DNA of 63,039 bases from a virus: the IMG/VR virus record IMGVR_UViG_3300046519_000446, positions 1-63,039 of that record; one strand, given 5' to 3'. Of this stretch, positions 914 through 59,215 are shown piece by piece; the stretch's first letter is position 1, and each line of letters starts with the position of its first letter. The notes under the pieces were generated by a model. It worked only from the letters and a program-made list of their open reading frames with translations, did not search any database and was not told the DNA's origin. The translations under genes were made by a program, and so were the position numbers.

Positions 914-927
<14 letters not shown>

Positions 928-22410: not shown

Positions 22411-23370
22411 CTACAGAAGGTCAGCGACGACTGCACCGCCAAGCTGATTCCTACACACCAAGGTCTTCTCCATGGTCATCAGGAAGCGCTCGTTGTCGCC
22501 GGTCTTGGCCAGCGGCGTGGACTTCAGACCGTCCAGCGTCGCCACCGCCCACATCTTCGGGTCGATGAACAGCGCATCACGGCTGAGCGCCGCGTACGGG
22601 TGCGGGATCAGGGTGATGGCCCCGAAGTCCGACACGTAGACGTCGGCAGCGGCGGTGATGGTCGCCAGGGCGTTGCCGCGCACTTCGCTGCGGATGTCGG
22701 CGATACCGGTGAACGCCGAGAACTGCTGCTTGTGCGTGCCGTCCAGATAGCACTGGCTCAGCATGGCGCCGTTGGAGAACGCCGTGGCCAGCACGCCCTT
22801 GACCAGAGTCTCGGTGAAGGTGCGCTGGGTGCCGTTGGTGGCCGCGGCGACGGTGCCGCCGGAGAAGCCGCCGTTCGAGCCGCCCGAACCGCGCGAGACG
22901 TTGGTGGTGAGCCACGCCAGAGCGCCGGCCGACTTGCGGGTGGTGGCGCCCGATTCCGCGACAGAGGCGTAGTTGCCGACGAAGCGCTTTTCAGCGTCAC
23001 GGCGGATTTCCAGGCCCTTCAGCATCTTCTGGCGAGCCAGTTCGCTGTCGCGGCCAGCCTTGTCGACCACTTCCTGGGTGCGCGAGACGCCGCCCTTTTT
23101 GGTGAAGATCTGGCAGCGGTTGCCGACGCGGGTCGTCAGGTTGGCGGCGTCCAGCGAGGAGACGTCATCCCCTTCCAGGGCGGCGTTGGTCTCGTCGGCG
23201 GCGGCCAGGTTCTCAGTCTGCCATTCATGGAAAATGTTGGTGGCCTTGGCGGTGCCGATGTTGCTCGACAGCGGGGTCGACTCCGGAGCGACGCGATAGA
23301 TCACGTTCTCCAGGTCTTCGCGGATGCCGATGTTGTTGACGGAGGTGACGGTGTTCGTGGGAGCGGTCAT
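22411..23370 (-). CDS. Major capsid protein (DUF5309/SU10-like)
   Basis: The protein has 319 residues. TNTVTSVNNIGIREDLENVIYRVAPESTPL, here recognised in pieces, and FHEWQTENLAA are the N-terminal signature of the SU10/DUF5309 major capsid family; the rest (TRVGNRCQIFTKKGGVSRTQ, LSRDALFIDPKMWAVA) also fits an HK97-like shell protein. It follows the scaffold gene with a four-base overlap (23367-23370). Confidence 0.85.
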   Translation of the reverse strand: MTAPTNTVTSVNNIGIREDLENVIYRVAPESTPLSSNIGTAKATNIFHEWQTENLAAADETNAALEGDDVSSLDAANLTTRVGNRCQIFTKKGGVSRTQEVVDKAGRDSELARQKMLKGLEIRRDAEKRFVGNYASVAESGATTRKSAGALAWLTTNVSRGSGGSNGGFSGGTVAAATNGTQRTFTETLVKGVLATAFSNGAMLSQCYLDGTHKQQFSAFTGIADIRSEVRGNALATITAAADVYVSDFGAITLIPHPYAALSRDALFIDPKMWAVATLDGLKSTPLAKTGDNERFLMTMEKTLVCRNQLGGAVVADLL

Positions 23371-24470: not shown

Positions 24471-24746
24471 CTAGCGCCGGTCTTGATCGGCGGGCGAAAG
24501 GAGCGCGGCCATGTCGCGCTGGTAGGCGACGGCCTGGCCGTTAGCGACAGTCTCGACGAGGGCCTTGCGGACCATCTCGATGGCCTTGAGGGCGTCGTAG
24601 TACTTCTCGCGGGTGGCCACGGCATCGACGCCGGTGGCGACCAGCTTCTCGACGAGGAGCGCCTTCATCTGGTCGAAGGCCCATTGGGTCTCGATCAGTT
24701 CAGCGCCAGCGCGATGGCCCCTGTGGATGGCTTGGTCTTCGGTCAT
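24471..24746 (-). CDS. Hypothetical protein between portal and scaffold
   Basis: The protein has 91 residues, helical (FDQMKALLVEKLVA, YDALKAIEMVRKALVE), similar in size and place to small proteins found between portal and scaffold in related phages. Its start overlaps the portal stop by four bases. Role unknown. Confidence 0.6.
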   Translation of the reverse strand: MTEDQAIHRGHRAGAELIETQWAFDQMKALLVEKLVATGVDAVATREKYYDALKAIEMVRKALVETVANGQAVAYQRDMAALLSPADQDRR

Positions 24747-26890
24747 CCCGGCTCTCCGCCCGGCTCAACATCAGACGCGACGTGCGTGTCTTCCTCGCTC
24801 GCGACATCATGGGAGCCGGCCATCGCGTCGATCGCCTGACCGCGCGCCTTCAGCGCCAGCTCAGCCTCAAGCTCCTCGCGCTTTAGCTGGAGCTCCGCGG
24901 CGATTTGGGCTTCCCGCTGGTCCAACTCGCGATGCTTGATCGCAACTTCGTTCTCATGCTTCTGTTGCTGGAGGGCGAAATTCGCCTCTTGCTCTTGCTG
25001 CTTGAGGTGGAAAGTTGCCAGCGCCTGGGCCTGTTCCATTTCGAGACGGGCTTGGTCGGCCTGCGCCTGTTGGGCCATTTGCTCACGCTGCAGGTCCATC
25101 TTGGCCTGAGCCTCCAACACTCTCGGATCCGGCGGAGGCGGTCCTGGTGGTGGCGCGTCCTTCGGGTCGGAGAAGAAGGCCTCAGGGTTCTTGATCCCAG
25201 CCTTCTCGGCGCGCTTGACGGCCAGGGCGTAGACGTTGGACGCCTTGACCAGGGGGCCTTCCATCCCGCCCTGGGCGCTGACGATCGCCGCCTGGTCACT
25301 GGCGACGCGATCGAGAACCATCATGTCGTGCTCGCGGCCCGACGCCCCAAGGCCAACCTCGATGGTCATGTCGTTGCGCACGGCCCACGACGACGGATTG
25401 ACCGGCACCCACTTATTGCGGAGCTTGACGACCTTGGCCTGCATCGCATGCTGGCGGAGGAGGTCGTGGACCCCCATGAACAGGTCTTTGATCCCGGTCT
25501 CGGCGAAGGTCCGGGCGATCATGCGAATCCGCTTTTGGGCCATCCCCATCAGGACCATGGCGCCTTTGGCGGTGTCGTGCAGCGTGTCCGGGGCCAGGCC
25601 TTGGGCGTTGCGGACCACGCCGGAGCGCTTTTCCGCCTCGGTGGACCAGTATTCTAGCCGCGCCTGGGCATCGAAGCCAAGGCCACCGGCCTGAAGCGGG
25701 GTGACGGCCGGCCCCTTGGTCCGCACCGGAGCGCCGGGGACATTGTTCAGGTAATCCGAGACCGTCCACTCGTTGGCGTAGGTCATGTCGATCTGGTTGC
25801 GCTGATTGAGCGCGAAATACCCGCTGTCGAGGTCCATCCGCGTCAGGGCGGTCTTGATCTTCTGGACCTCCATCAGCTTGTCGGCGATGGACTCGCCGTA
25901 GAACCGGTGGGTGACGAGGAACGGCGTGATCGCCGAGAGCTGGATCGCATTGACCTTCTGCTTGCGCAGCAGCTTGGCGCTCTCGCCATTCCCGCCCGTG
26001 AGCACCTGATAGAGCGTGGCGTAGGCGTTCGGCGGCTCCATGACGCGCACGTAGTGCTCGACCACCTCCACCTGGCGCATACCGCGGTTGGCGTCGCCGC
26101 CATAGCCCTGGCTGGTCTCTGCCACCGTGTCGCGGGCTTGGGCGATCGCATCGTTCTGCGGCGCGCTGTAGGCCGGAAGATCGTCGACTAGATCTGCGTC
26201 GATCCCCTGGGCGATGAGATCCTGGGCGCGAGGCCGTGACCGGGTGGCGCAGTAGGTCGATTGGCGCAGCCAGACGGTGTCGGCCGAGACCGTGATATCC
26301 TCTGGCGCCACGACATCAACCACGGCCCGGCCCTGGGGCGGTTTGGTCAGCGTGAAGTCATAGAGCGGCTCGCCCTGCCCGTCCCATTCGGGAGACTGGA
26401 CGACGTCGGAGATCTTACCGCCCTCCTCGGCCAGCAGCATCTCGATGGCCGTCTTGCCCTTGAACGTCTCGGGCGGGCAGGCCTTCTCCTCCCACCACCA
26501 CTTAAAGACGCCGGTCTTGGCCTGGAACGCGTCCTTGAACGCGGACGTTATGGTCAGGAAGCCGGGGTTCTCGTTGAAGATTACGTGGCGGACGTAATCG
26601 GTCTCCTGTTGGGCCGCATCCTCGTCCTCCTCACCGATCGGGGAGAAGGCCACCACGTCATCACCGCCCGTAAAGATCTCCACGACATCCGGAAGGATCG
26701 TCTCGATAGCATCGGCCACGTCCAGCGAAACAGCCTTGGACCGGCCAGGCAGCGTCGGAGCGTCGGGCATATAGCCCTTGATGTAGTTCAGCGCCCGCTC
26801 GCGCTCTTGGGTCAGCTCGCTGTCGAGGTCGAAGCCGATCGAACGGCGCTGCTCGCTCTGGACGATGGCCAGCAGATCGTCATCGGTCAT
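24743..26890 (-). CDS. Portal protein (P22-like)
   Basis: The protein has 715 residues. The N-terminus (ERALNYIKGYMPDAPTLPGRSKAVSLDVADAIETILP read in parts) and FFAL-type core, the VTHRFYGESIADKLMEVQKIKTALTR helix region (in parts) and APVRTKGPAVTPLQ match the P22 portal family. The last 150 residues form a Gln/Glu-rich coiled coil (barrel-like helix). Portals form the dodecameric DNA channel. The start lies 41 bases after the FAD protein stop. Confidence 0.85.
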   Translation of the reverse strand: MTDDDLLAIVQSEQRRSIGFDLDSELTQERERALNYIKGYMPDAPTLPGRSKAVSLDVADAIETILPDVVEIFTGGDDVVAFSPIGEEDEDAAQQETDYVRHVIFNENPGFLTITSAFKDAFQAKTGVFKWWWEEKACPPETFKGKTAIEMLLAEEGGKISDVVQSPEWDGQGEPLYDFTLTKPPQGRAVVDVVAPEDITVSADTVWLRQSTYCATRSRPRAQDLIAQGIDADLVDDLPAYSAPQNDAIAQARDTVAETSQGYGGDANRGMRQVEVVEHYVRVMEPPNAYATLYQVLTGGNGESAKLLRKQKVNAIQLSAITPFLVTHRFYGESIADKLMEVQKIKTALTRMDLDSGYFALNQRNQIDMTYANEWTVSDYLNNVPGAPVRTKGPAVTPLQAGGLGFDAQARLEYWSTEAEKRSGVVRNAQGLAPDTLHDTAKGAMVLMGMAQKRIRMIARTFAETGIKDLFMGVHDLLRQHAMQAKVVKLRNKWVPVNPSSWAVRNDMTIEVGLGASGREHDMMVLDRVASDQAAIVSAQGGMEGPLVKASNVYALAVKRAEKAGIKNPEAFFSDPKDAPPPGPPPPDPRVLEAQAKMDLQREQMAQQAQADQARLEMEQAQALATFHLKQQEQEANFALQQQKHENEVAIKHRELDQREAQIAAELQLKREELEAELALKARGQAIDAMAGSHDVASEEDTHVASDVEPGGEPG

Positions 26891-26931: not shown

Positions 26932-29082
26932 CTAGGGCCTGCTCGGCGCGAGCACGATCTTGGTCCCCGACGCCGTCACCTGGCCGTTGGCGTCGTTGCA
27001 GTCGAGCTCGACATAGTCGGCGCTCGGAACGCCGGCCCGAAGCTTGTAGCGCCCTAAATACTCCCATCGGCCGCCGTTGCTGTCGTAAACCCCGCCGACT
27101 TGCTGGCTAATCCGCTGAGCCGTCGTGCCTTGCTCGGTGACGACGTTCACCAGAAGATTGGTCGCCCTGCCTTGGCCGCCGGCCGCAACCGCCTCGTCCG
27201 CCGAATACTCAAGGTACACATCGTACCAGCCCGCGCCGTAGACATTCAGCGCGTCTTTCCACTTGTGGCCAGCCACGTTTGCGGCGAGGACGGTATCGTA
27301 GGATGGCGTCGTCCCGCCGATCCCGCCGTAGCGGGACGATCCAGTGACCCAGTTCGCGCCCGTCTTGGTGATCGTTCCGTGACCATAGGTTCCTGAGCTG
27401 TCGCTGACCGTCCCGTCCTCGATGTCCCAGGGGTCGCAGATCGCGGCGACCTGGCTGTATTGAACGCTCTGGACGGCGAGGCTGTGCTTGACCGCCAGGG
27501 CGGCGACGGCGCCGGCCGCCGATCCGATCATCATCATAGATGGCGCGACGCGGATGCTGCGCCAAATGACGTGGCTGACCGAGGGCTGGGAGGCGCAGAC
27601 CAGGTTGGTGCACTCGGCGACCTTCGGGAACAGGACCCGCATCGACACGCGGAAGCCGTAGCCCGCGCCCAGGGCGGTCAGTACTGCGCCCTCGACATAG
27701 GTCAGGCCGCCCACGACAAGACGACGCACGATGTGGCCGTCGATATCGTAGAACCCAAAGGCAATTGGGTCGGTGAGGCCGTTGGCCAGGACTGCGTGCG
27801 TCTGGTTCTGGACAAAAGCGCCGACCGCGCGCGCGCCTTCTCGTTCGTAGAACTGCGGCGACCAGCCGCCGGTCTCCGGCAGTTGGTAGGCCGAGAACCC
27901 ATAGTTGTTGAACGCCGTGCGGATCGTGGCCGGGATGCGGGCGTCGGACTCGAACATCAGCCAGTAGATCCAGCCCAAGGCATAGTTCTTGGCGTTGGCG
28001 CGGATCTCGGCCCGGCGGGCGATGCTGGCCGTCACGTACTCGACCAGCTCGCTGGTGATGGGATAGTTCAGCGACAGCGGTCCGCCGCTGTTGCCATCGA
28101 CATAGGTGATCGGCGTACCCATCGCCGTGCCGTTGCCGAAGTTCAGGTTGTAGAACTGGATGATCCGCGTCAGGCCGTTGACGGCGTCACCGTAATAGGT
28201 CGGATTGGCGGCGAAGGCGCGGCCCAGCAACTCATAGCGCGAGGCCTGATAGTCGGTGGGTGGCCCCGCGGTGAAGTACGTGGCCCAGTCGATCTTCTCG
28301 CCGGCAACGCTGGTCAGGAACAGCCGGAAGCCAAAGCCCATGACCCGGCCGTCAGCCGCGCCGACCGTGCCGGCCGCGCCCGCATCGACGCCGAACAGGA
28401 GACCGGACCCAGAAACGCCGGGGGTCACGTACGGATCGACGTCGGTCGTCCCGTCCCACTTCGTCGCGGCGAGAATGCCGTTGCTGGTCTCGCCATAGGT
28501 GGCGTTGGCTTCCCGGCCGACCGAGAACGAGGTCAAGGCCCGCTGATTGACGTCGCCGCAGGCCGTGCCCTCGACGACCACGGTTGGGTAGTAGCGGCGC
28601 CGCACGCCGTTCGTGTCCAACAGCAGCGACGTGATGGTCGTGCCGGTCTTCTGGAGCGACACCAGTTGCGTGCTGGGCAACAGGGTGATGTTCGGATGGG
28701 TCAGCAGCTCGACGAACGCCCGCTTGGAGAACTGCGGGCGCATCTGCCCCTCGTACTTCCACCAGTGGGCGAAGTTGCGGCGCAGGGTCTGCTTGGCCAC
28801 CGAGGTCAGGAACCGCTTGGTCTGGCCGCCGACGACGGCGCAGGACTTGGAGCCCTTCACGTCCTGTTGGTTCAGGCCGTAGCCGCTGGACATCCAGCCG
28901 AACCACGCCTCATTGCTGGTCAGCAGGACAACCATGCCGGCGTCGGCCGCTTGGCGCGCGGCGAAGCAACCCGCCTCGGTCGCGCCAACGACGATGACGT
29001 CGTAATGGTCCTTGAAGGGCATAACCTTGCGCTTGAGCGCGCCGCCAGCCTTCTCGATGCCGACTTCGGTTACCGCGCTCAC
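26932..29082 (-). CDS. FAD-dependent oxidoreductase with C-terminal golvesin-like domain
   Basis: The protein has 716 residues. Residues 27-55 hold the FAD Rossmann motif (DVIVVGATEAGCFAARQAADAG), then SSGYGLNQQD and VVGGQTKRF, all typical of the PF12831 FAD oxidoreductases; about 168-200 reads EGTACGDV, then SVGREANATYGET, also canonical. The last 140 residues (SSRYGGIGGTTPSYD, YDVYLEYSADEA, WEYLGRYKLRAGVPSADYVEL) look like a golvesin/xanthan-lyase-type beta domain. In bacteria such proteins act on exported compounds or sugars. Here it lies between terminase and portal, in the packaging module. Substrate and virion association are unknown. Confidence 0.8.
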   Translation of the reverse strand: MSAVTEVGIEKAGGALKRKVMPFKDHYDVIVVGATEAGCFAARQAADAGMVVLLTSNEAWFGWMSSGYGLNQQDVKGSKSCAVVGGQTKRFLTSVAKQTLRRNFAHWWKYEGQMRPQFSKRAFVELLTHPNITLLPSTQLVSLQKTGTTITSLLLDTNGVRRRYYPTVVVEGTACGDVNQRALTSFSVGREANATYGETSNGILAATKWDGTTDVDPYVTPGVSGSGLLFGVDAGAAGTVGAADGRVMGFGFRLFLTSVAGEKIDWATYFTAGPPTDYQASRYELLGRAFAANPTYYGDAVNGLTRIIQFYNLNFGNGTAMGTPITYVDGNSGGPLSLNYPITSELVEYVTASIARRAEIRANAKNYALGWIYWLMFESDARIPATIRTAFNNYGFSAYQLPETGGWSPQFYEREGARAVGAFVQNQTHAVLANGLTDPIAFGFYDIDGHIVRRLVVGGLTYVEGAVLTALGAGYGFRVSMRVLFPKVAECTNLVCASQPSVSHVIWRSIRVAPSMMMIGSAAGAVAALAVKHSLAVQSVQYSQVAAICDPWDIEDGTVSDSSGTYGHGTITKTGANWVTGSSRYGGIGGTTPSYDTVLAANVAGHKWKDALNVYGAGWYDVYLEYSADEAVAAGGQGRATNLLVNVVTEQGTTAQRISQQVGGVYDSNGGRWEYLGRYKLRAGVPSADYVELDCNDANGQVTASGTKIVLAPSRP

Positions 29083-29432: not shown

Positions 29433-30986
29433 CTAGGCCGTGGCGAAGTTCGGGATGACCAGCTTGTCCTGGCCGCTATTCTCGCTGACGGGCTCGGCGA
29501 AGGTCAGGACGACCGCGTCCCACTCGTCGGGCGAGCGGATCTTGCGGACCACCCGCATGTGCTCTTTGCTTTCGAGGACCAATTGCGACGTTGTGGGGTG
29601 GTAGCTGTAGCCAGGGCCGCAGGCGTCGGCCTGCAGGACGTCAGAGTCTGGAATATCCGCCCCGCCTTCGTCCCTCAGCCAATCGTTGGATAGATCCCAC
29701 ATCTCATCACGGCGGTACTTCGGCCCAGCCATCGGCTTGCCGTCTTTGTCGCGCTTGGGTGGATAAACGGGAGACGAACCGAAATTCACCACACGGCAGA
29801 TTTTCTGGTACTTCTCACCCCACCCGGTGAGGATATCGAAGATCCCGCCCCCGCCGCCCACGTCAATGAACACCCGCGCCGGTTTATCCCGGTCGATGAT
29901 GTCCTTCAGTTTCGCTGCGGCCCGAACGTTGTCGATCGGCGAAGCGTCGCTCTCGACCTTCTCCAGCTTGCGACCGCGGCGCCAGGCGATGGCAAAGCGG
30001 TCCTTGCCCTCGCGCTTAGGGTCCACGCCGATGATCAGCGGCCCCACGCCCTTGAGATCGGCCTTGCGAGCCTTCAGCACATGCTCGGGCTTGATGAAGC
30101 TGTCGTGGCCTGTCGTTTGGAACGCCTCAGCCGCCGTGGCCGGGTATTCCTGCTTGAAGAGCTGCGGATCCTTCAGTTCAGCTATCTTGGCCCGTCGCCA
30201 GCACATCTGATCCAGGTCAAGCTCGTGAAGCTCGGCGTACTCCCACTCTTCCTCGTCCATGACGAAGTCGTCAGGTGCGGGGCGACGGTACTCATCTTGC
30301 CAAAACCACGGCACGAAGATGGCCTGATAGTCGCCTATCCCCGCCTCGGCCTGCTGCCAGCGCTCGTGGAACTCGCCGCCGACCCCGTTGGCTGTGCTCT
30401 CCAGGACGATCTCTGTTCCAGGGAGGTCTGGAACGGCCTGCACCACACCCGCAAAGTGGGAAGCGGCATTAGGCCAGAAGCCAACCTCGGAACCGTGGAG
30501 CAGCAGGATGGTCTTTGACCGCCCGACAGCTCGCGCGCCAGCCGTGGCCACCGCGTACCCGCTATCCAGGGCGGCGAATAGCAACTCCTTGGCGTTGTCG
30601 TTCTTGGTCGAGGGCGCGATCGGGTTGTGATCGTTGTAGCGCTTCGCCATTGCGAAGAGGTTGTCTGTCGCCGGCTGCTCGTGCGTCAGGATGAAGACGC
30701 CGACGCCCTGGTGCATCGTGGCCCGGTGATAGAACCTAGCGCTGATGTAGGTAGAGACGCCCTGTTGCCGTCCCTTGAGGATCAACGCCCGAACACGACC
30801 GGTCCTGGCCTTCTGATCTTCTAGCTTGGCGTGAACGTGCCGCTGCGCCTGGTTCAGCAGCAACGGACCGATGCGGCCGTCCTTTCCCTTCAGCTTCATG
30901 CACCGTTCAAAGTGCAACAGCGGCTGGTCTCGGAAGGTGCGCAACGTCTCGAGCGCAAAGGCCCGAGCGTCTACGCCCTCAGCCAC
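29433..30986 (-). CDS. terL: Terminase large subunit
   Basis: The protein has 517 residues. Walker A KGRQQGVST is at 71-79, the Walker B-type strand ILLLHGSEVGFW near 155-170, TEIVLESTANG follows as motif III, and the nuclease domain starts with IIGVDPKREGKDRFAI, whose Asp would bind metal. It is the ATP-driven DNA packaging motor and headful or site-specific nuclease. Overlaps the small subunit by eight bases. Confidence 0.9.
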   Translation of the reverse strand: MAEGVDARAFALETLRTFRDQPLLHFERCMKLKGKDGRIGPLLLNQAQRHVHAKLEDQKARTGRVRALILKGRQQGVSTYISARFYHRATMHQGVGVFILTHEQPATDNLFAMAKRYNDHNPIAPSTKNDNAKELLFAALDSGYAVATAGARAVGRSKTILLLHGSEVGFWPNAASHFAGVVQAVPDLPGTEIVLESTANGVGGEFHERWQQAEAGIGDYQAIFVPWFWQDEYRRPAPDDFVMDEEEWEYAELHELDLDQMCWRRAKIAELKDPQLFKQEYPATAAEAFQTTGHDSFIKPEHVLKARKADLKGVGPLIIGVDPKREGKDRFAIAWRRGRKLEKVESDASPIDNVRAAAKLKDIIDRDKPARVFIDVGGGGGIFDILTGWGEKYQKICRVVNFGSSPVYPPKRDKDGKPMAGPKYRRDEMWDLSNDWLRDEGGADIPDSDVLQADACGPGYSYHPTTSQLVLESKEHMRVVRKIRSPDEWDAVVLTFAEPVSENSGQDKLVIPNFATA

Positions 30987-37505: not shown

Positions 37506-37673
37506 CTAGATCAGGTCGCGTTTTCGCCAATCCCCGCAGAGGGCGCAGCGAAGATGGATGCGGTGGCCGATGCCGCCCATGCCATCCGTCAATCGCTTGT
37601 CGGACTCGGTTTTCCACGAGTGGTCGCATCGCGAGAACCGTCCGACCAGCACGCGCCAAATCCAGCCGATCAT
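37506..37673 (-). CDS. Small zinc-ribbon-like protein (55 aa)
   Basis: The product begins MIGWIWRVLVGRF and contains CDHSWKTESDKR and, 20 residues on, RCALCGDW, a CxxH/CxxC pair that fits a small zinc ribbon seen in phage DUF1660-like proteins. The ATG overlaps the upstream stop by four bases (ATGA at 37670-37673), supporting translation. Confidence 0.6.
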   Translation of the reverse strand: MIGWIWRVLVGRFSRCDHSWKTESDKRLTDGMGGIGHRIHLRCALCGDWRKRDLI

Positions 37674-38143
37674 CCCGCGACCCGCCGAACAAAGGCTGCG
37701 ATCCGCGACCAGAGCGATTGACGCGGCGCCGCGGACTCGGGCGGGACGTCATTGGCCGGTTGAATCCACTCGACCCGCATGTCAGCCAGGACCGCGAACG
37801 GGTCACGTAGCGGCCCCTCGCCTGGATTGGCGCGCTCGAACTCGTAGACCGTCGCTGTCGGCTGGGGCTTCCGCTTGCGCCGGTCCTCGACCTTGGTCGT
37901 GGCCAGCCGCTGAGCGCCCAGCGCCCGCAGCTCGGCCCGCACGTTGGCCAGATGGTTCAGCGCCCCACGTCGGCTGTCGCTGGGGCTCGCCGGGTAGATC
38001 ACGAACCGTGTCGCGCCACGATACGCCAGAACCAGAGCGTAGTGCTTGCCGCGCACCTCTCGATGAAAGGTCACTCCCGGCCAACGGGATAGCTCGAGCT
38101 CGACAGCGTCGTCGTAGTCGGAGCGCTTGAGGACGGCGGTCAT
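37670..38143 (-). CDS. Hypothetical protein
   Basis: The protein has 157 residues. An alpha/beta domain (TFHREVRGKHYALVLAYRG, FVIYPASPSDSR) looks like a small nucleic-acid-binding or nuclease-inhibitor-like fold, followed by a basic linker and a C-terminal amphipathic helix (SRIAAFVRRVAG). Coupled to the SspB-like gene by a four-base overlap. Unknown. Confidence 0.55.
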   Translation of the reverse strand: MTAVLKRSDYDDAVELELSRWPGVTFHREVRGKHYALVLAYRGATRFVIYPASPSDSRRGALNHLANVRAELRALGAQRLATTKVEDRRKRKPQPTATVYEFERANPGEGPLRDPFAVLADMRVEWIQPANDVPPESAAPRQSLWSRIAAFVRRVAG

Positions 38144-38583
38144 GCGGCGTCGCCGGCGCCGACAAGGCGAAGGCCATGGCGGGGATCTTTGGCCTCACGA
38201 GGCTGAGACGGTTCGAGGGGGAACATCAACGCGAACTGCGCAACCGGATCATAGTAACGCACCACGGCCGCCCAAGGGACGGTGATCTTGGCTTCAACAC
38301 CGCCGAACGAGAGATCTACCGAAAAACTCTTCTCGTCGACATCAAGGTTCCAGAACCGGTTCTGCAGAATGATGGTGGCGAGACCGTTGCTGTCTTGAGG
38401 TCCGTAAGCGGGATAAACGACGCCTGCACAATCGACTGAGAATGTGATGAAGGCGTGCTGTTCTCCCGGAAAGCCGCCGCTCTGGACGACAAAGCAAAGG
38501 GTGTCCCGCACCACTGCGCGCAACGCTTCCATGGCGAAGCTTTCGTATGGGATAAGTCCAGTCGTCTCGGGCAAATCAGTCAT
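38140..38583 (-). CDS. sspB: SspB-like ClpXP adaptor (alpha type)
   Basis: From ATG 38583, with AAGGA spaced 8 bases upstream, the product has 147 residues. LIPYESFAMEALRAVVRD (10-27), HAFITFSV (43-50), IILQNRFWNLDVDEKSF (71-87) and SVDLSFGGVEAKITVPWAAV (88-107, read in parts) match the alphaproteobacterial SspB fold, which delivers ssrA-tagged and other substrates to ClpXP. The C-terminal GLRLVGAG near 137-145 resembles the ClpX-binding LRVV tail motif of SspB. Phage copies of this adaptor are rare to my knowledge. It may supply or compete with the host adaptor; substrate choice is unknown. Confidence 0.85.
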   Translation of the reverse strand: MTDLPETTGLIPYESFAMEALRAVVRDTLCFVVQSGGFPGEQHAFITFSVDCAGVVYPAYGPQDSNGLATIILQNRFWNLDVDEKSFSVDLSFGGVEAKITVPWAAVVRYYDPVAQFALMFPLEPSQPREAKDPRHGLRLVGAGDAA

Positions 38584-38634
38584 GGCGATTTCCTTTGAGA
38601 GAATTTTACCCCACTTCAAGCCGTCCGTCATAGA

Positions 38635-39393
38635 TCAGCTTGGCGGTTGCGTAACATTGTCGTGATCCAGGCCCAATAACGATCGCATTTGCGGCGTGAT
38701 GCCATTCTCAACGGGCGCCATCTGGACTTCCGGTCCACTGACCCGCCGCGCGGCCTTTTCACGCTCTCGCCTTGCGTCGTCCGCTTCGATGAACTTGCGC
38801 ATGGCGGATTTGATGGCCTCCTTCTCCGCCGGTGTCTTATCGACGGGCTTGCGACCGATTGGCGCCAGCAGTTCGGCCATTGCAGCGGGGCCGACCGACT
38901 CCCGCGCCACAGGTTCGCTGAACTCGACGGCTTGGCGCGCACGGTCGTAGGCCCTGACGGCCCGGTTCTCCGTCATGCGGGCGATCTCGGCCAGCTTGGC
39001 GGGTTTGGGGAGGAACTCGACCTTCGGGTCGCGGATCACCGCGTCCATCGCCGCCTCAAGCGCCGACTTCGGCACATCGGCCAGAACCGTGTGATAGTCG
39101 GACCAGAACGCGGCCCACTCAGCCGCAGACCGCTCCGGCTGGCGATAGGTGGCGAACTTGGCGCCGATGATCGCCTCGATCTCGCCGGGCGTCGCCGCGC
39201 CGGTCGCCCTGGCCTTGATCGCCGGTAGAGCCGCCGTCACCTCGGCCAGCATGACCGGGTTACGGGCGATCTCAGAAACTGCTCTCAGGTTCGATGGTTC
39301 GAAGGCGAGCAGCGATTTCAGACCCGGCGACAGCTCGCTCAAGGTTTGATTTATGGCGGTCGAACTTGCCGGTTGGGTGACTAGGGCGTTCAT
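38635..39393 (-). CDS. Hypothetical, replication-region protein
   Basis: From ATG 39393 the product has 252 residues, helical and charged, with a segment DPKVEFLPKPAKLAEIARM reminiscent of helicase-loader-like phage proteins and a basic region near the C-terminus. Its first 122 bases overlap the end of the DUF1376 gene in another frame. Its place beside DUF1376 and DnaA-like genes suggests a replication role; weak inference. Confidence 0.5.
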   Translation of the reverse strand: MNALVTQPASSTAINQTLSELSPGLKSLLAFEPSNLRAVSEIARNPVMLAEVTAALPAIKARATGAATPGEIEAIIGAKFATYRQPERSAAEWAAFWSDYHTVLADVPKSALEAAMDAVIRDPKVEFLPKPAKLAEIARMTENRAVRAYDRARQAVEFSEPVARESVGPAAMAELLAPIGRKPVDKTPAEKEAIKSAMRKFIEADDARREREKAARRVSGPEVQMAPVENGITPQMRSLLGLDHDNVTQPPS

Positions 39394-40138
39394 GGCGTGT
39401 CTCCAGGCCAATGGCTTCGGGAGGGCGGTTGCGGTCGGCGTGCGACCGGGCGACGGCGGGGGCGAAGTAGGCCCAGGTGTGGACCGGTAGCGATCCGGGC
39501 CTTGAGGCGTGCGCGGTCACGGTCGGGACCACATCGAGGTCCCAAGAGCATCCGAGCTGGCGCCAGCGGGCGATTTCCCCCACTGAGGTCACGAGCCCCT
39601 GACGCTTGGATGGGTCGAGGTGGAGGTTGATCTTGGCGAGAAGGGCCGCGTGATCGGTCGCCTTGCCGGGCGGCCAGTCGTCGGTGTCATTCGCGCCCGC
39701 GTCTACAGCACCAACAACTATATTCTTTGGTTCTGGTTCTGGTTCTGGTTTTGTTGGCAAACGGGAAGCATTTGCTTGCCGGTTTTCCTTTGCTTTTCCA
39801 GCACTTGCCAATCCTCCAGCTTTTCCGGCCTCTGAGCGCTTACCGGAAGTGTCGCGGTACTTTGCTAAATCCTCGGTCACGCGAGCCTGGGTCAATTTGC
39901 CCCTGACCACCTTCAGCATGTTCGGCATGAGGAGTTTCGGCTTGACCGCCTTCCACTCCTCGGCAGACAGTTTTGCGTAGGCCGCCAGCGTCTCGTCGCT
40001 AGCATCTAGCCGGCCACCGTTGTTCCAAAGCGCCCCGATCAGGAGCATGTAGGCTCCATGCTCCCGGGCGTGGCCAAGGTGTGCCGTGTGCTTGTGGTAC
40101 GAGCCCCAGAAGAGCTTTTGGTAGGGCGGTGCGCTCAC
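39272..40138 (-). CDS. DUF1376-like replication-associated protein
   Basis: From GTG 40138, which overlaps the upstream stop (GTGA), the product has 288 residues. The N-terminus (PYQKLFWGSYHKHTAHL, then GAYMLLIGALWNNGGRL) is typical of the DUF1376 family, common in phage replication modules; a Pro/Glu-repeat linker (KPEPEPEPK) separates a second domain (GEIARWRQLGCSWDLDVVPTV). DUF1376 proteins are thought to help replication initiation but are not well characterised. Confidence 0.7.
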   Translation of the reverse strand: MSAPPYQKLFWGSYHKHTAHLGHAREHGAYMLLIGALWNNGGRLDASDETLAAYAKLSAEEWKAVKPKLLMPNMLKVVRGKLTQARVTEDLAKYRDTSGKRSEAGKAGGLASAGKAKENRQANASRLPTKPEPEPEPKNIVVGAVDAGANDTDDWPPGKATDHAALLAKINLHLDPSKRQGLVTSVGEIARWRQLGCSWDLDVVPTVTAHASRPGSLPVHTWAYFAPAVARSHADRNRPPEAIGLETRHERPSHPTGKFDRHKSNLERAVAGSEIAARLRTIEPESSF

Positions 40139-40725
40139 GCAGCCTCCCTCCCCGACCATTCAGCGGCGATACGAGCGGCGTGGGCGCGGACACCATGGAG
40201 GACCGTGGTGTGGTCCCGCCCGCCTAAGAACCGACCGATCTGCGGAAGGCTCAGGTGATCCTGCTGCGCCATGAGGTACATGCAGTGCTGGCGGGGGACG
40301 CTGAAGACCCGCGACTGGTTCGGCCCGAGAATGTCGGCCGTCGATAGCCCGTACTCGAAGGCGATCTGATCGAGGATTTCCTGCTTGGAACGCCGCGCCC
40401 GCACCACGGGCACGGTTCCGCGCCAAAGCGAGAAAACGGTAGTTGGCTCAGGCTTGGCGAGCGTTCTCGCCTTAGTGTCGGGCACGCCGATGAAGTTGCG
40501 ATAGAGCATGGCGCCGCGCTTCACGTTGTCGGGGCAGCGGTTCATCCACCCCCCGATTGAACGCGAGGAGAAGTGCTTCAACAGTCGCGCGTAGGCCTCA
40601 CGCCTAGCGGCGGTGACGGTTGGCCCCTGGCCCTTGGCGGTCATGTCTTCCACCAGTAGTCCGTGACGCTCGGCAACCTGCGTAACGATGGCCCGCGCCC
40701 TCTCGGGCATGAGGGGGGCGGTCAT
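40135..40725 (-). CDS. Protein with tandem DnaA domain IV-like DNA-binding domains
   Basis: From ATG 40725 the product has 196 residues. The C-terminal half (114-190) reads like DnaA domain IV, with GRFLGGRDHTTVLHGVRA at 164-181 close to the DnaA signature GGRDHTTVLHAC. The N-terminal half (12-75) resembles a second, diverged copy (RAIVTQVAERHGLLVEDM; SSRSIGGWMNR). The AAA+ and oligomerisation domains of DnaA are absent, so it could bind DnaA boxes but not unwind DNA. It could act as a phage initiator partner or a competitor of host DnaA. Coupled to the methyltransferase upstream. Confidence 0.75.
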   Translation of the reverse strand: MTAPLMPERARAIVTQVAERHGLLVEDMTAKGQGPTVTAARREAYARLLKHFSSRSIGGWMNRCPDNVKRGAMLYRNFIGVPDTKARTLAKPEPTTVFSLWRGTVPVVRARRSKQEILDQIAFEYGLSTADILGPNQSRVFSVPRQHCMYLMAQQDHLSLPQIGRFLGGRDHTTVLHGVRAHAARIAAEWSGREAA

Positions 40726-42014
40726 GCGGCGACCTCGACAGTCCCAAACAGGCCCATGTCGCCGTTGATCCGCTTGCGCGCGATCTCGGCGTATTCGGGC
40801 GACAGTTCGATTAGGGTGCAGTCCAGACCCATGCGATCGGCGACCAGGGCAGTTGTCCCGGCCCCGCCGAACGGATCCAGCACCTTGCCGCCCTTCGGGC
40901 ATCCGGCCTGTAGGCAACGCCGTGCAAGCTCGGTCGGGAAGGTGGCGAAGTGGGCGCCCTTGAACGGCTCGATGGCGATTTCCCAGACCGTGAGCGGGGC
41001 GGGTTCGAAGTTGCGGAGATAGCGCCCCTCGCCACGTCCTAGGGCCATCAAGCCTGTGTGGTTCTTGCCTTCAGCGTGCGCCGGATCGATGTTCGGTGCG
41101 CGCCGTTCTGCGGATGGGATGGCGTTTCCAAGCGTGTGACGACCGTGCGTCGAGCGCCCGCGAATTTCCTTTGTTTTGCCCTTTTCGCGCCCCTCGCGAT
41201 GGAAGGAGCCGTGACCACCCGCGCCAGTATCCCAGCCGTCTGGCATCTTGACGCGCTTGTTGCCCGTCGTAGTGCGCGGCCCCGGTGAGCCGCCCACATA
41301 TGAGCCGCCCCGATAGCCGTTGGCATCCTCGTCGCTGGCGCGACCCTGGAGAACTTCGTTGGCGTCGTAGTAGGCACCGATCCGCGTCCAGCGTGCGCCG
41401 GTTCGGTCGGGGTCGGTGACGAGCGGACAGCGCTCGCTGAGGTCGGGCGCGAAAGAAAGCTCTCCGGTGTCCCGTGCGCGCCAGATGTCGGCGTCGGCCG
41501 ACTTGGTGAACATGAACACCTTCTCGTGGGCGATCGCCGGCCGCTGTGAGCCTGACGAGTCCGGCATCGAGTTGGACTTGCCCCAGATGCATTCGGCGCG
41601 GACGTACCAGCCGTCGTCACACAGGGCGATGGCGAGCCGGTTCGGGATCATGCACAGGTCTTTGGCCTTGATCAGGCCGCCGACCGTGGACATTGGCTTG
41701 TCGCGGAAGGCCCGGTCGTCCAGGCCTGTTGCCTTGCTGTCCGCTGCGCTGCGCCCGTTCGGAGCGCTGGCGTAACAGTCGCCATAGTTCATCCAGCACG
41801 TGCCGGTCGGCTTCAGGACACGGCGCAGTTCGCGGAAGACCTCGACCATCTTGGCGATGTGATCGGCGAGCGTCGGTTCAAGCCCGATCTGGCCTTCAAC
41901 GCCGTAATCGCGAAGGCCCCAATATGGCGGGCTGGTCACGATGGTGTCGAAGTGGTTGTCGGGCATCTCGGCCAAGCGGTCGAGAATGTCGCCGATGAGA
42001 ATTGAGACGCTCAT
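40722..42014 (-). CDS. DNA methyltransferase (TSPPYW type; N4-C or N6-A)
   Basis: The protein has 430 residues. The catalytic motif IV TSPPYWGLRDYG is at 28-39, and the SAM-binding motif LDPFGGAGTTALVAD is near the C-terminus, which is the beta-class order. A SPPY motif is usual in N4-cytosine enzymes but not decisive. A target-recognition region with many Arg/Gly lies between. No partner restriction enzyme is seen, so it is probably solitary and may protect phage DNA or alter host gene control. Confidence 0.85.
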   Translation of the reverse strand: MSVSILIGDILDRLAEMPDNHFDTIVTSPPYWGLRDYGVEGQIGLEPTLADHIAKMVEVFRELRRVLKPTGTCWMNYGDCYASAPNGRSAADSKATGLDDRAFRDKPMSTVGGLIKAKDLCMIPNRLAIALCDDGWYVRAECIWGKSNSMPDSSGSQRPAIAHEKVFMFTKSADADIWRARDTGELSFAPDLSERCPLVTDPDRTGARWTRIGAYYDANEVLQGRASDEDANGYRGGSYVGGSPGPRTTTGNKRVKMPDGWDTGAGGHGSFHREGREKGKTKEIRGRSTHGRHTLGNAIPSAERRAPNIDPAHAEGKNHTGLMALGRGEGRYLRNFEPAPLTVWEIAIEPFKGAHFATFPTELARRCLQAGCPKGGKVLDPFGGAGTTALVADRMGLDCTLIELSPEYAEIARKRINGDMGLFGTVEVAA

Positions 42015-43460: not shown

Positions 43461-44035
43461 GCGGAGGCCTTTCCGTGACGTTCTGAAAATCCATACTGAC
43501 GGTTCGCCGCGTCTCTTGCGGCGGCAGCGGCATCGAGGTTGTCGAAGTGCCCCAGGTGCTTGGTTTGGCCATTGATCATGATGCCAGCCCGCCACTTTCG
43601 CTTCTGCCTGCTGAAGCTCACGCCGGTTACACCGCTGGTGTTGTCCGACCTCTGCCTCTGGTTCCTGGCGTTTTTGGCATCCGAAGCCTCTTGGAGATTT
43701 TCGATGCGATTGTCGGTGCGAGCGCCATTACGGTGGTCAATGAGGGCGCTAGGCCACCTACCGTGCACCAACAGCCAGATCACACGATGCGCCTGGAACA
43801 GGCGGCCAAAGAGCGAACCATGGCGGTATCCATCGCCTTTGGTGGCCGTGAAGGCTTCTCTGCCAGCGTTCCGCGTGTTCCACGTTCGATGGTAGCGGTC
43901 TGAACCACACAATTCGCGCGGCCGCTCTCGCCAGAAAAGGCGGCCGGTATCGGGCTCATAGCGGAGGAGTTGCCGGACCACTTCGGCCGTCAAGGTCTCG
44001 GCGGCCGCTTCGCGTTCATGACGGGAGAGCATCAT
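43457..44035 (-). CDS. HNH endonuclease with C-terminal AP2-like DNA-binding domain
   Basis: The protein has 192 residues. HRVIWLLVHGRWPSALIDHRNG and DNRIENLQEAS make the HNH core (His-Asn-His), and GVTGVSFSRQKRKWRAGI with GHFDNLDAAAAARDAAN is the AP2 domain typical of phage homing nucleases. It lies between rusA and the GcrA homologue and may be a selfish insert, although it is neatly coupled to both neighbours. Confidence 0.85.
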   Translation of the reverse strand: MMLSRHEREAAAETLTAEVVRQLLRYEPDTGRLFWRERPRELCGSDRYHRTWNTRNAGREAFTATKGDGYRHGSLFGRLFQAHRVIWLLVHGRWPSALIDHRNGARTDNRIENLQEASDAKNARNQRQRSDNTSGVTGVSFSRQKRKWRAGIMINGQTKHLGHFDNLDAAAAARDAANRQYGFSERHGKASA

Positions 44036-44421
44036 TCTTCCTCGTGCGCCGGAGTGACGGTCACACGGACCATCGGGTGGGTGGGAAAAACGGGAGCGGT
44101 GAAGGGGCTCGACCAGTCGACGGTCATGCCCTCGTTCAGGCTGTCGTCGGTGATGACGCGCATGGCGGTGAGAAGGTCAGCTACCGCCTTGATGCGGTTG
44201 TCGAGATCCACACGACGGCCGGCGTTGATACGGTCGAAGGTTAGGGCCAGCTTGAAGTGGCCAAGGATCTTCCCGCGAGCGGCCGGCGGGACTTGCCATC
44301 CCGCCTCGCTTAGCCATGCGCGATAGACCTTGGTCTTGACGCGCTTGGTTCCGTTCAGCGTTGGGATCGTGCTGAACAGCGCATTGGTCGAAGGTGGGGC
44401 GGGTAGGCTGAACGCGATCAT
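44032..44421 (-). CDS. rusA: RusA-family Holliday junction resolvase
   Basis: The protein has 129 residues. PPSTNALF, VDLDNRIKAVADLLTAMRVITDDSLN (in parts) are the RusA hallmark with the catalytic Asp pair (VDLDN; DD). RusA resolves recombination intermediates and branched DNA before packaging. Length and motif order match the family. Confidence 0.85.
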   Translation of the reverse strand: MIAFSLPAPPSTNALFSTIPTLNGTKRVKTKVYRAWLSEAGWQVPPAARGKILGHFKLALTFDRINAGRRVDLDNRIKAVADLLTAMRVITDDSLNEGMTVDWSSPFTAPVFPTHPMVRVTVTPAHEEE

Positions 44422-50796: not shown

Positions 50797-51519
50797 GTGG
50801 GAAGCGCCCTTCACCTCGGCGACTGCTTCGACGTCATGCCGACGCTGCCGGCGCAGTCGGTCGATATGGTCCTGGCCGACCTTCCGTATGGCTCGACCCG
50901 CTGCGCCTGGGATACGGCGCTGCCATTCGAGCCCTTGTGGGCTGCGTACCGTCGCATCTGCCGTGGCCCGGTCGTCCTGTTCGCGCAGACACCGTTCGAC
51001 AAGGTGCTTGGGGCGAGCAACCTCAAGGGTCTGCGTTACGAGTGGATCTGGGAGAAGTCGCATCCGACCGGCCACCTGAACGCCAAGAAGATGCCGATGA
51101 AGGCGCACGAGAACATCCTCGTGTTCTACGACCAACAACCCACCTACAACCCGATCAAGACGCAGGGCCACGCCCGAAAGGTGGCGACGAAGCGCGCCGA
51201 CCTGACGCCAGTCTATGGCGCCCAGAAGTTCGCGCCGCTGCCCTACGACAGCACCGAGCGCTATCCGCGCAGCGTCCTGCAGTTCCCGAGCGACAAACAG
51301 CGCTCGAAGCTGCACCGGACCCAGAAGCCCGTCGCGCTCTGCGAATACCTGATCCGCACCTACACCGACCCCGGCGCCACCGTGCTGGACAACTGCATGG
51401 GCAGCGGGACGACAGGCGTGGCCTGCCAGAACACCGGCCGCAACTTCATCGGCATCGAGAACGATCCGGCGATCTTCGCCATCGCTGAACGACGCCTGCA
51501 GGAAAGGCTCGCAGCATGA
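50797..51519 (+). CDS. DNA adenine-type methyltransferase (DLPYG)
   Basis: From GTG 50797, just after the upstream stop, the product has 240 residues. LADLPYGSTRCAWD (catalytic motif IV, D-L-P-Y form), then KLHRTQKPVALCEYLI, and DNCMGSGTTGVACQNTGRNFIGIE (in parts) as SAM motif I in the beta-class order. DLPYG enzymes are frequent in phages and most are N6-adenine methylases. No restriction partner is visible. Confidence 0.85.
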   Translation: MGSALHLGDCFDVMPTLPAQSVDMVLADLPYGSTRCAWDTALPFEPLWAAYRRICRGPVVLFAQTPFDKVLGASNLKGLRYEWIWEKSHPTGHLNAKKMPMKAHENILVFYDQQPTYNPIKTQGHARKVATKRADLTPVYGAQKFAPLPYDSTERYPRSVLQFPSDKQRSKLHRTQKPVALCEYLIRTYTDPGATVLDNCMGSGTTGVACQNTGRNFIGIENDPAIFAIAERRLQERLAA

Positions 51520-56073: not shown

Positions 56074-56534
56074 GCCCCGCTGATCTCGTCGAGAAGCGCC
56101 GCCCCCTCACCCGCCGCGAGATCATCGAACTGGCCGTGCGCCAGGTCGGCGTCTGTGGATGCGGCTGTGGCGTGAAGCTCAACGCTCTGACGGAGGGTGT
56201 GATCGACGAGCACATCATCCCCCTGGAACTGACCGGCTCCAACGACCTGTCCAACCGAGAACTGTGGCGCGCGCCCTGCTCGGCTGAGAAGACGAAGAAG
56301 GACCGCACGAACATCGCCAAGGCGCAACGCTTGGCTGGCGAGACCTGCGCGGGGCCGACCAAGAACCCGATCAAGTCGAGAGGGTTCGGACACCTGACGC
56401 GCAAGTTCGACGGCTCCATCGGCCTGTCGAAGGCTGAGCAACGCAGACTATCGGCTGGCGCGGAACGCGTCCACACTGGGCAACTCCGGGATGAATACTC
56501 ATCTTCTCCCCGCTCTACTAAGGCTGGTGCCTGA
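56070..56534 (+). CDS. HNH endonuclease
   Basis: The protein has 154 residues. GVCGCGCGVKL gives the zinc Cys, DEHIIPLELTGSNDLSNRELW and CSAEKTKKD the HNH motif. Typical phage HNH nuclease, possibly for packaging or homing; here in the early operon and coupled to the cytosine methyltransferase. Confidence 0.8.
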   Translation: MSPADLVEKRRPLTRREIIELAVRQVGVCGCGCGVKLNALTEGVIDEHIIPLELTGSNDLSNRELWRAPCSAEKTKKDRTNIAKAQRLAGETCAGPTKNPIKSRGFGHLTRKFDGSIGLSKAEQRRLSAGAERVHTGQLRDEYSSSPRSTKAGA

Positions 56535-57481
56535 TGGACAGGGGGAGAGGAAAGGCCGGACGCCGCGGCGTCTACTACAACGAATTCAACAAGCAGAAAG
56601 CGGCCTGGCTGCGCCATCTCATAGAGGAGGGCGTGATCGCCCATGGCTTCGTCGACGAACGCCCGATCCAAGCCGTCCAGCCCGAAGACCTCGACGGCTT
56701 CGTCCAGTGCCACTTCTTCGCCGGCATTGGCCTCTGGAGCCTCTGCCTGCGCAACGCTGGATGGCCCGACGATCGACCTGTTTGGACCGGTTCCTGTCCT
56801 TGTGGGCCTTTCAGTAAGGCCGGAAATCGTCTCGGCTTCGACGACCCGCGCCACCTTTGGCCGCAGTGGTTTCGGCTCATCCTCGAGCGCCGGCCTGTCG
56901 TGCTGTTTGGCGAGCAGTCTGATGAAGCGCTCTCGTGGCTCGACCTTGTTCAAGCTGACCTGGAGAGCCGCGGCTACGCCGTCGGGCCGGCTGTTATACC
57001 TGCTGCGGGCTACGGCGGCGCGCATGGACGCCATCGGATTGGCTTCGTGGCCGACGCCGACAACACCGAGTGGTGGACAGAACGTGCCCCCTGGAACGAC
57101 GGCCGGTGGCCGGCGGCCGGACGGATCCAAAGCCACAATCACGCTGAAGATGATCTCATCGCTCGCCGCCTGGCCGACGCCAACAGCGCAGGACGCATCC
57201 GGCTCGAGGAACGCGACAAGTTCCAGGCAGCAAGACTCTCAGCACCACGCGGGGGTGACAATGATGGACGCGGCGCTGTTCGCGGATTGGCGGCGGCCGA
57301 CTTCCTCTTTTGTCGTGACGATCGCTGGCGCCCAGTTGAACCCGGAACATTCCCGCTGGTTGATGCGGATTCCGGCGGTGTGGAGCTCCTGCGCGGTTAC
57401 GGCGATGCCATCGACGTCGAGGCGTTCACGAACCTGATCGGCGCCTATCTCGACTGCGCGCCGTCACGAGCCGCGGCATGA
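56534..57481 (+). CDS. DNA cytosine-5 methyltransferase (C5 type)
   Basis: The protein has 315 residues. HFFAGIGLWSL (62-70) is SAM motif I, VWTGSCPCGPFS (83-94) is motif IV with catalytic Cys90 (the usual PCQ reads PCG), LFGEQ (124-128) replaces ENV, and the end RPVEPGTFPLVD with LLRGYGDAID is motif X-like. It is shorter than typical C5 enzymes, as in other phages. A second long frame overlaps it almost fully (56643-57437). No restriction partner. Confidence 0.8.
   Translation: MDRGRGKAGRRGVYYNEFNKQKAAWLRHLIEEGVIAHGFVDERPIQAVQPEDLDGFVQCHFFAGIGLWSLCLRNAGWPDDRPVWTGSCPCGPFSKAGNRLGFDDPRHLWPQWFRLILERRPVVLFGEQSDEALSWLDLVQADLESRGYAVGPAVIPAAGYGGAHGRHRIGFVADADNTEWWTERAPWNDGRWPAAGRIQSHNHAEDDLIARRLADANSAGRIRLEERDKFQAARLSAPRGGDNDGRGAVRGLAAADFLFCRDDRWRPVEPGTFPLVDADSGGVELLRGYGDAIDVEAFTNLIGAYLDCAPSRAAA
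56643..57437 (+). CDS. Overlapping second-frame gene inside the C5 methyltransferase (candidate)
   Basis: The +1 frame is open for 264 codons inside the methyltransferase gene. Its product has recurring features I recall from phage proteins of unknown function next to C5 methyltransferases: GPTIDLFGPVPV, ATFGRSGFGSSSSAGL, STLFKLTWRAAATPSGR, SWPTP twice, and near the end QLNPEHSRWLMRIPAVW. Motifs rather than random composition argue for a real gene. The start is uncertain: ATG 56643 or an internal TTG near 56735. Comparison across relatives would settle this. Confidence 0.55.
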   Translation: MASSTNARSKPSSPKTSTASSSATSSPALASGASACATLDGPTIDLFGPVPVLVGLSVRPEIVSASTTRATFGRSGFGSSSSAGLSCCLASSLMKRSRGSTLFKLTWRAAATPSGRLLYLLRATAARMDAIGLASWPTPTTPSGGQNVPPGTTAGGRRPDGSKATITLKMISSLAAWPTPTAQDASGSRNATSSRQQDSQHHAGVTMMDAALFADWRRPTSSFVVTIAGAQLNPEHSRWLMRIPAVWSSCAVTAMPSTSRRSRT

Positions 57482-57564: not shown

Positions 57565-57996
57565 ATGACAAATCCTACTCCTACTACAGGGATAGACCGG
57601 GATGGGCTGGAGAGCGCTCGCGCCAGCTTGGCCGATCATCTCGACGATTTCGACCGCGAGAACAACGACGACATTGACGCCGAAGATTTCAACATCGGCC
57701 AGGACGAGTACATCGAGGTCTGGGCGGCTCGGACCCTAGCCAAGGAACAGGCGGAAACCATCGCCAGCCTGACCGCGACGCTGGAATACGCCGAGGACCG
57801 GCTGCACGAGATCAACGTCAGCAACTACGACCATGACGACGTTTGCCGCCTGAACGAGCGGTCGGTCGAGGTCATCCTTGCCATCCGCCACACGTTGAAA
57901 GACGTCTCCCGATGCTGCTCTGGGGGAGATGCTGTTAACATCCTCCACCGGCCGAGGCCGAAGGATTGCCAAGAAGGGAGAGCCCCTCTTGAGTAG
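57565..57996 (+). CDS. Hypothetical acidic protein, 3' end altered by the TnpB element
   Basis: From ATG 57565 the product has 143 residues, acidic with helices (DRDGLESARASLADHLDD; LEYAEDRLHEINVS). The last 20 or so residues are encoded by the reverse of the tnpB 3' end, so the original C-terminus has probably been lost. A possible displaced tail sits after the element at 59200-59245. Unknown function. Confidence 0.55.
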   Translation: MTNPTPTTGIDRDGLESARASLADHLDDFDRENNDDIDAEDFNIGQDEYIEVWAARTLAKEQAETIASLTATLEYAEDRLHEINVSNYDHDDVCRLNERSVEVILAIRHTLKDVSRCCSGGDAVNILHRPRPKDCQEGRAPLE

Positions 57997-59215
57997 TTCG
58001 CACTTCATCGGAAGGGAAACCCCTTTCCTCCATGCGCATCCACGCAGTGTTCCTGCGCAGTATCTCTATAGCGGCATTTGTGTCGGCGTGGATTTCGAAG
58101 CCGCAATGGTGGCAAACGAAGCGAGCTTGGCTTTCGCGGCTCCGTTTGTCTATGCAGCCACAGGCCGAACATGTCTGACTGGTGTGTTGAGCCGGGACCT
58201 TGCAAAGAAAGCCGCCTCGCTCTTCGAGCTTGTAGGAGAGCAGCGTCTCGAATTGAGACCAACCCTGGTTAAGGATGGCGCGATTCAGGCCGCGCTTCTG
58301 GGAGACGCCCTTGCCGGGCTCGTCGAGCGTGCCGGCGGCGCTGGCGGTCATGTTGGCGATTTTCAGATCTTCGAGGACGACGGTTCCGAAGCGTTTGGCG
58401 AGGCCTGTCGTCACTCGGTGGCACCAGTCCTTACGGATACGCGCGCGCTTCGCGGACAGTTTGGCGCAGCGCCGCAATTGCTTCAGCCTTCGCTTAGAGC
58501 CTCGCTTGCGCCTGGCAAGGACGCGCTGTGCGGCACGTTGGCGACGCTCGACGACCAAAAGACAGGCTGGAATAGAAAACATCTCACCGGTGCTCAAGGC
58601 CAGCGTGTTCGTGACCCCGCGATCAATGCCAACGCTTGTGCCGACATGATCAACTGCGGGCGCTTCGAAGGCGCAGGCGAAGCTGACGTGCCAGCCAAGC
58701 GCGTCGTGCGACACCGTGGCGTTGCGGATCTGACCCCGGATCGGACGAGTGTCTCTGAACTTCACCCAGCCGATCTTGGGCAGGCGGACAGACGACCATT
58801 TGTCGTTAAGGCGCCTGACCTGGACCTCGCGGCCGAGAAATCGGAAGGCGTCGTTCACGCCCTTTCGGCGAGGCGTCGGATAGTGCGCCCTGCCGGCGAA
58901 GAAGTTGGTGAAGGCCCTATCGAGATCCATGAGGGCTTGCTGCGGACAGGTCTGAGCGACGGCTGCGATCCAGTCGAACTCGGCGCGCAACAGAGTAAGT
59001 TCTTTGCTCTGAGCGAAGTAGTTGAGATTTCCGCCGGTCTGGCGCCGAAACTGTCTCCACCAGTTCTCACGTTGATCGAGCGCCAAGTTATAGACCAGCC
59101 GACAAACGCCGGAGAAAGCCCGGAAGGCACTCTCCTGCTCTGGAGTCGGATGGAGCTTGAAGCGGAAACCGCGCACCTGCATTCCGCTAATCTACCCGAA
59201 GCCGCTGGAGAAGTC
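57900..59215 (-). mobile_element. IS200/IS605-type element with tnpB only (borders approximate)
   Basis: The element carries one gene, tnpB, and no TnpA transposase, like IS1341-type elements. It has inserted into an early plus-strand gene. At the 3' side, TCTCCC at 57905-57910 can pair with GGGAGA at 57924-57929, and GATGCTG repeats nearby, a plausible right-end hairpin. The exact ends and any target site cannot be fixed without an uninterrupted relative. Confidence 0.7.
57935..59182 (-). CDS. tnpB: TnpB RNA-guided nuclease-type protein
   Basis: The protein has 415 residues. The N-terminal OrfB region (FRFKLHPTPEQESAFRAF; GVCRLVYNLALDQRE) is followed by the RuvC core: Asp187 in GIDRGVTNT, Glu271 in VVLEDLKI, a four-Cys zinc ribbon (CSACGC 338-343; CHHCG 357-361), and Asp367 in ADTNAA. 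All three catalytic residues are present. TnpB proteins are RNA-guided DNA nucleases whose guide RNA comes from the element's 3' end, here expected at about 57.85-58.0 kb. It is antisense to the surrounding early genes. Confidence 0.9.
   Translation of the reverse strand: MQVRGFRFKLHPTPEQESAFRAFSGVCRLVYNLALDQRENWWRQFRRQTGGNLNYFAQSKELTLLRAEFDWIAAVAQTCPQQALMDLDRAFTNFFAGRAHYPTPRRKGVNDAFRFLGREVQVRRLNDKWSSVRLPKIGWVKFRDTRPIRGQIRNATVSHDALGWHVSFACAFEAPAVDHVGTSVGIDRGVTNTLALSTGEMFSIPACLLVVERRQRAAQRVLARRKRGSKRRLKQLRRCAKLSAKRARIRKDWCHRVTTGLAKRFGTVVLEDLKIANMTASAAGTLDEPGKGVSQKRGLNRAILNQGWSQFETLLSYKLEERGGFLCKVPAQHTSQTCSACGCIDKRSRESQARFVCHHCGFEIHADTNAAIEILRRNTAWMRMEERGFPSDEVRTTQEGLSLLGNPSASAGGGC

Follow-up and report, generated by a model that had tools for sequence, protein, structure and literature searches.

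The provirus analysed here encodes a genuine SspB of the alphaproteobacterial type, and we think it about an even chance (roughly 0.5) that this protein acts as a ClpXP adaptor made early in lytic growth. The gene, sspB, lies at 38140-38583 on the minus strand of the window, by which we mean the whole stretch of 63,039 bases, and codes for a 147-residue protein of the SspB-alpha family. Translation starts at an ATG at 38583, 7 bases beyond a Shine-Dalgarno-like AAAGGA (38591-38596, minus strand), and the TGA stop overlaps the ATG of the downstream gene as ATGA (38140-38143). The original prediction, made from the sequence alone, had proposed an SspB homologue at this position without stating the strand; the proposal is borne out, and the peptides that it quoted are all found in the open reading frame. 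The PF04386 (SspB) profile matches residues 18-132 with 88.7 bits, compared with a cut-off of 27 (E = 5.5e-25). By sequence, the closest proteins of solved structure are Caulobacter SspB (2qas and 2qaz) and its Agrobacterium orthologue (2nys), with E values of 1.2e-23 to 6.5e-19, and these values, together with that of the profile, place the identity far beyond chance. No PHROG family matched the protein at E values up to 0.001.

The assignment to a phage rests on the gene's surroundings. The record is a provirus record, classified as viral, and carries genes for a major head protein (22411-23370, minus strand, phrog_1328), a portal protein (24743-26890, minus strand, phrog_1216), the terminase large subunit (29433-30899, minus strand), virion proteins and an amidase, as well as Gam-like and RecT-like proteins; a phage integrase gene (61912-63039, plus strand) forms the right end of the provirus. 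Within this record sspB belongs to an operon that reads leftward and whose genes mostly overlap; it includes those for a RusA-like Holliday junction resolvase (44032-44421), a DNA methyltransferase (40722-42014), a protein resembling the C-terminal domain of the DnaA initiator (DnaA-C; 40135-40725) and a DUF1376 or primosomal-type replication protein (39272-40159), all on the minus strand. Directly upstream of sspB is a gene of unknown function (38635-39252, minus strand, phrog_10105; a longer reading frame starts at 39411), and the gene after it, with which it shares the ATGA overlap, occupies 37670-38143 on the same strand. Most sphingomonad sspB loci, and some others, have hisB/hisH/hisF or thyA as chromosomal neighbours, whereas the window has phage replication genes instead. 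Bacterial contamination of the window can thus be ruled out, since phage structural and integrase genes flank sspB and its neighbours are phage replication genes.

At the left end, positions 1-2862 (minus strand) look like host chromosome, with genes for a MoxR ATPase and for DUF4381-like and DUF4129 proteins. In a set of 51 Sphingomonas genomes the best match to one of these flank proteins has 44% identity, and the alphaproteobacterial host is therefore probably a sphingomonad or a relative of one. The provirus has some further unusual cargo. Between the terminase and portal genes lies a gene (26932-29082, minus strand) for a 716-residue FAD-dependent oxidoreductase (PF12831, E = 1.7e-54) whose end is weakly golvesin-C-like, an uncommon passenger for a late module that was found in none of five relatives compared. 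A TnpB/IS605 OrfB-type protein with a Cas12f1-like TNB domain is encoded near the integrase (57935-59086, minus strand), and the methyltransferase gene of the sspB operon is one of three different DNA methyltransferase genes, the others being at 50797-51519 and 56534-57481 (both plus strand).

How closely does the protein follow its chromosomal counterparts? The folded core, residues 10-121 (38221-38556, minus strand), is delimited by the Pfam match, by the AlphaFold model and by Foldseek matches. The model, a single chain built from an alignment of 38 sequences, has an overall pLDDT of 83.6, with residues 11-120 mostly above 90 (a block at 90-98). Its best matches among solved structures are again 2qas, 2qaz and 2nys (E about 1e-10), followed by E. 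coli SspB (1ox8 and 8et3, E = 1e-6 to 1e-5); among the E. coli matches, 1ox9 is a complex with ssrA and 8et3 a ClpXP delivery complex. With the profile, the structural relatives and the phage gene context in agreement, the claim of an alphaproteobacterial SspB on a phage holds. All 18 positions that are invariant in a broad alignment are retained, among them Q74, whose equivalent glutamine in Caulobacter SspB is presumably important for tag binding. With 85 alignment rows treated as chromosomal and conservation of at least 85% required, there are 59 near-invariant host positions, of which the window protein keeps 36, whereas the median for the rows is 58. Many of the positions lost fall at residues 42-69 (H42Q, F44A, T50V, L61G, P66N, E68L and M69A), a cluster which suggests that the substrate groove may be altered relative to that of host SspB.

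The C-terminal tail, residues 122-147 (38143-38220, minus strand), is of low predicted confidence, with residues 136-147 at pLDDT below 50. Nearly all of the chromosomal alphaproteobacterial SspBs examined end in a VVxxDxFxRKK-like ClpX-binding motif, which is missing from the window protein. A frameshift masking such a tail was considered and ruled out, as none is encoded in the alternative frames. The protein ends instead in GLRLVGAGDAA, in which the LRLV at residues 138-141 (38161-38172, minus strand) loosely resembles the gamma-type ClpX-binding motif, L-x-[VI]-[VI]-K, although the final lysine is missing and six residues are extra. The suggestion in the original prediction that the protein ends with a ClpX-tethering tail was thus only partly upheld: LRLV is present, but it is followed by GAGDAA and so is not terminal, and the alphaproteobacterial motif is absent. 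Comparable LRLV-type motifs occur within the last 16 residues of 3 of the 106 predicted window proteins, so that the motif is weak evidence for a tether. It is nevertheless plausible from its sequence that GLRLV serves as a ClpX tether in its new setting. E. coli SspB and Caulobacter SspB-alpha reportedly each deliver substrates to the other species' ClpXP (work by Chowdhury, 2010, which PMC8138137 cites), which makes a gamma-like tail acting on an alphaproteobacterial ClpX not absurd. The window protein thus shares with Caulobacter crescentus SspB-alpha (2qas, 2qaz) its family, its core fold and the broadly invariant positions, at 41-43% identity in structural alignment, but differs in being phage-borne, in lacking VVxxDxFxRKK and in its altered near-invariant positions at 42-69.

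Scans of IMG/VR revealed one further true phage SspB, 45% identical to the window copy, in record IMGVR_UViG_3300036944_000501 (here L006; sspB at L006:9845-10297). The portal and capsid proteins of L006 are 50% and 57% identical to those of the window, and the two phages are of one family. In both, sspB lies in an early operon with rusA and dnaA-C; downstream of the L006 gene are rusA, dnaA-C, an HTH_36 gene and a homologue of the window's post-sspB gene. The two copies differ in other respects. The L006 gene is the first of its operon. Before it lie a divergent gene resembling an HTH repressor and, directly next to it, a small gene taken as putatively Cro-like from its position, in which Pfam finds no HTH. 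The L006 product retains 41 of the 59 near-invariant positions and, in contrast to the window protein, has an XB-like tail, NVVVFKGRAK. By way of a side observation, 14 of the 56 predicted L006 proteins end in AA, which could reflect ClpXP-type C-termini or chance. The corresponding counts for this ssrA-like ending are 10 of 93 proteins in the window and 43 of 685 at sphingomonad loci, a difference that is suggestive at most.

Beyond this pair the gene is rare. Among 44 portal-related virus records only that of L006 itself has sspB, although many of the records are fragments and absence is not proven in each. Records whose portals are 88-92% identical have other genes in the sspB region, and in two of them these open reading frames resemble helicase or primase replication genes, as judged by eye from their translations. 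A general link between sspB and the DnaA-C replication module was rejected, as PF04386 was found in none of 50 DnaA-C phage records, many of them fragments. A search for the post-sspB gene yielded no additional phages, and further viral scans for SspB no additional phage copy. We conclude that sspB is an accessory gene in its phage family. Several candidates are bacterial or probably so. In the GenBank phage collection the window protein matches MT836065 alone, which was rejected as bacterial because it has genes for thymidylate synthase and alanyl-tRNA synthetase and a tail reading VVSIDAFRKK, and three short IMG/VR matches (L007-L009) are probably host sequence, grouped with chromosomal copies by their tails and by the tree. 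MT836065.1 and CAKLQF020000033.1 are both labelled as phage in GenBank yet have bacterial housekeeping genes around sspB, and would mislead surveys of phage SspBs.

Comparison with host SspBs, a phylogeny that the original prediction had proposed, sets the phage copies apart. In a tree of 89 sequences they pair with each other (support 87/76) outside the Sphingomonadales clade (100/99); both branches are long, which leaves their exact position unsure. The best chromosomal identity to the window protein is about 47%. Recent capture from the host was rejected on these two grounds, and the pairing of the phage copies outside the Sphingomonadales clade makes recent acquisition from a sphingomonad in particular unlikely. 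Two PF04386 matches were seen in only two of the genomes listed among 385 alphaproteobacterial genomes searched; in one of these, Caulobacter sp. UNC358MFTsu5.1, a second SspB-like open reading frame (L058:12009-12278) with no C-terminal tail lies some 2 kb away from the host's own sspB.

The rarity of the gene, its long branch and the small number of near-invariant host positions that it retains could mean that sspB is a captured passenger, functionless and drifting. We regard this as quite improbable. The reading frame is unbroken, it has a ribosome-binding site and a translational overlap, and the model of the core fold is highly confident. Moreover, L006 has retained a diverged homologue in the corresponding operon, and a neutral gene should not stay intact through about 55% divergence.

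Phage-encoded SspBs are not in themselves new. The original prediction knew of no described phage SspB of this type; two phage SspBs have in fact been published, although both are gamma-type. The first to be reported, in 2017, was gp18 of Pseudomonas phage pf16 (PMC5587285), which like the window protein has a shortened acidic linker but shares about half of its residues with E. coli SspB, ends in LRVVK and belongs to a T4-like phage. Erwinia phage RAY gp039, a cytoplasmic protein, has been described as a putative ClpXP adaptor (PMC10299810). It and the SspB-like proteins of jumbo phages share the SspB fold with the window protein, but they are gamma-type proteins of giant phages with LTVVK-type tails, and in fold matches such proteins are only 9-21% identical to the window model. 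An E. coli SspB query matched 75 records in the phage collection, a few of them bacterial sequence, and many jumbo and T4-like phages have an annotated gamma-type SspB. The tails read from true phages are mostly of the LxVVK type (PTLRVVK in pf16, PTLTVVK in RAY, PKLTVIKGGKK in PA7 and RPKLTIVK in SNUABM_54), implying that phages usually keep a likely ClpX tether. The jumbo phage Xanthomonas LucasX encodes a protein that is SspB-like but carries the annotation hypothetical (L208:1453-2019); its tail, MADFRARRKPSS, is unlike the remaining gamma-type phage tails. SPO1 Gp53, a phage adaptor-like modulator of ClpC in Bacillus (PMC6873191), is a different protein altogether. The novelty here lies in the alphaproteobacterial type, the location in the replication operon of a temperate phage and the replaced tail.

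The loss of the host-type docking tail also underlies the main rival to an adaptor role, namely that the protein is a dominant-negative or decoy. It would bind SspB substrates, or form mixed dimers with host SspB, and, having no working tether, slow ClpXP delivery, a proposal we consider unlikely; the effect, to be viewed just as tentatively, would be that phage proteins are protected or host proteolysis altered. The tail is only 26 residues long and of low confidence, while the core fold is retained. A partner to poison would be available, as alphaproteobacteria almost always carry an SspB of their own: PF04386 is present in 338 of 385 alphaproteobacterial genomes, and the query finds a single match in 389 of 398 Sphingomonadaceae genomes, with two matches in none. 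Efficient delivery is said to require bivalent tethering of SspB, as the title of a 2004 study by Bolon, cited in PMC7804408, has it. The tail of L006, however, is XB-like, and with one exception the gamma-type phage tails that were read have the XB motif, so that tail loss is not a general phage rule; furthermore, GLRLV may itself be the tether.

If GLRLV does bind ClpX, the protein could conceivably compete for the ClpX N-domain, its tail occupying ClpX while its core no longer binds ssrA, so that phage proteins are spared or host SspB is blocked. The clustered changes at residues 42-69, through which substrate binding has possibly been lost, would fit such a competitor, as would the gamma-like LRLV. 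We think it very unlikely, because a well-folded core that retains Q74 and the other broadly invariant positions would be needless for mere competition by a tail.

We therefore return to the ClpXP adaptor. Such a protein would be expressed from the phage replication operon during early lytic growth. Its folded core would still use the SspB groove to bind a C-terminal peptide, whether the ssrA tag, a phage or host protein, or both, and its disordered tail would dock on the ClpX N-domain through the gamma-like GLRLV. A small set of proteins, perhaps a repressor, the phage initiator complex or tagged fragments from host takeover, could then be delivered to host ClpXP, helping the switch to replication. 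Computation establishes the SspB fold, the phage setting, the early replication operon, the equivalent operon in L006 and the loss of the host-type tail. The missing tail counts against this reading, as do the weak likeness of LRLV, the retention of only 36 of 59 positions and the rarity of the gene among close relatives. There is precedent in that SspB raises ClpXP degradation of lambda O, for which its ClpX-binding tail is needed (PMC7804408), and in that ClpX is essential for CI inactivation during prophage induction in S. aureus (PMC10584840). SPO1 Gp53, mentioned above for its action on ClpC, is a further parallel (PMC6873191).

Finally, the pair of phage proteins bears on how phages use host proteolysis. 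ClpXP sets the fate of several phage switch proteins, including lambda O, MuA and the CI of S. aureus. A bolder proposal, which we consider unlikely, is that in a temperate phage SspB has become a dominant-negative or a re-targeted adaptor, its core kept and its host-type ClpX tether exchanged, which during induction would block or redirect host ClpXP delivery. If so, we know of no earlier case of a phage SspB disarming the adaptor pathway instead of supplementing it. A phage adaptor of the alphaproteobacterial type is a small system in which to test whether proteolysis regulated by the host is supplemented, redirected or poisoned by phages. Of the two related phage SspBs only that of L006 has an XB-like tail, and the pair provides a natural contrast by which tethering may be separated from substrate binding.
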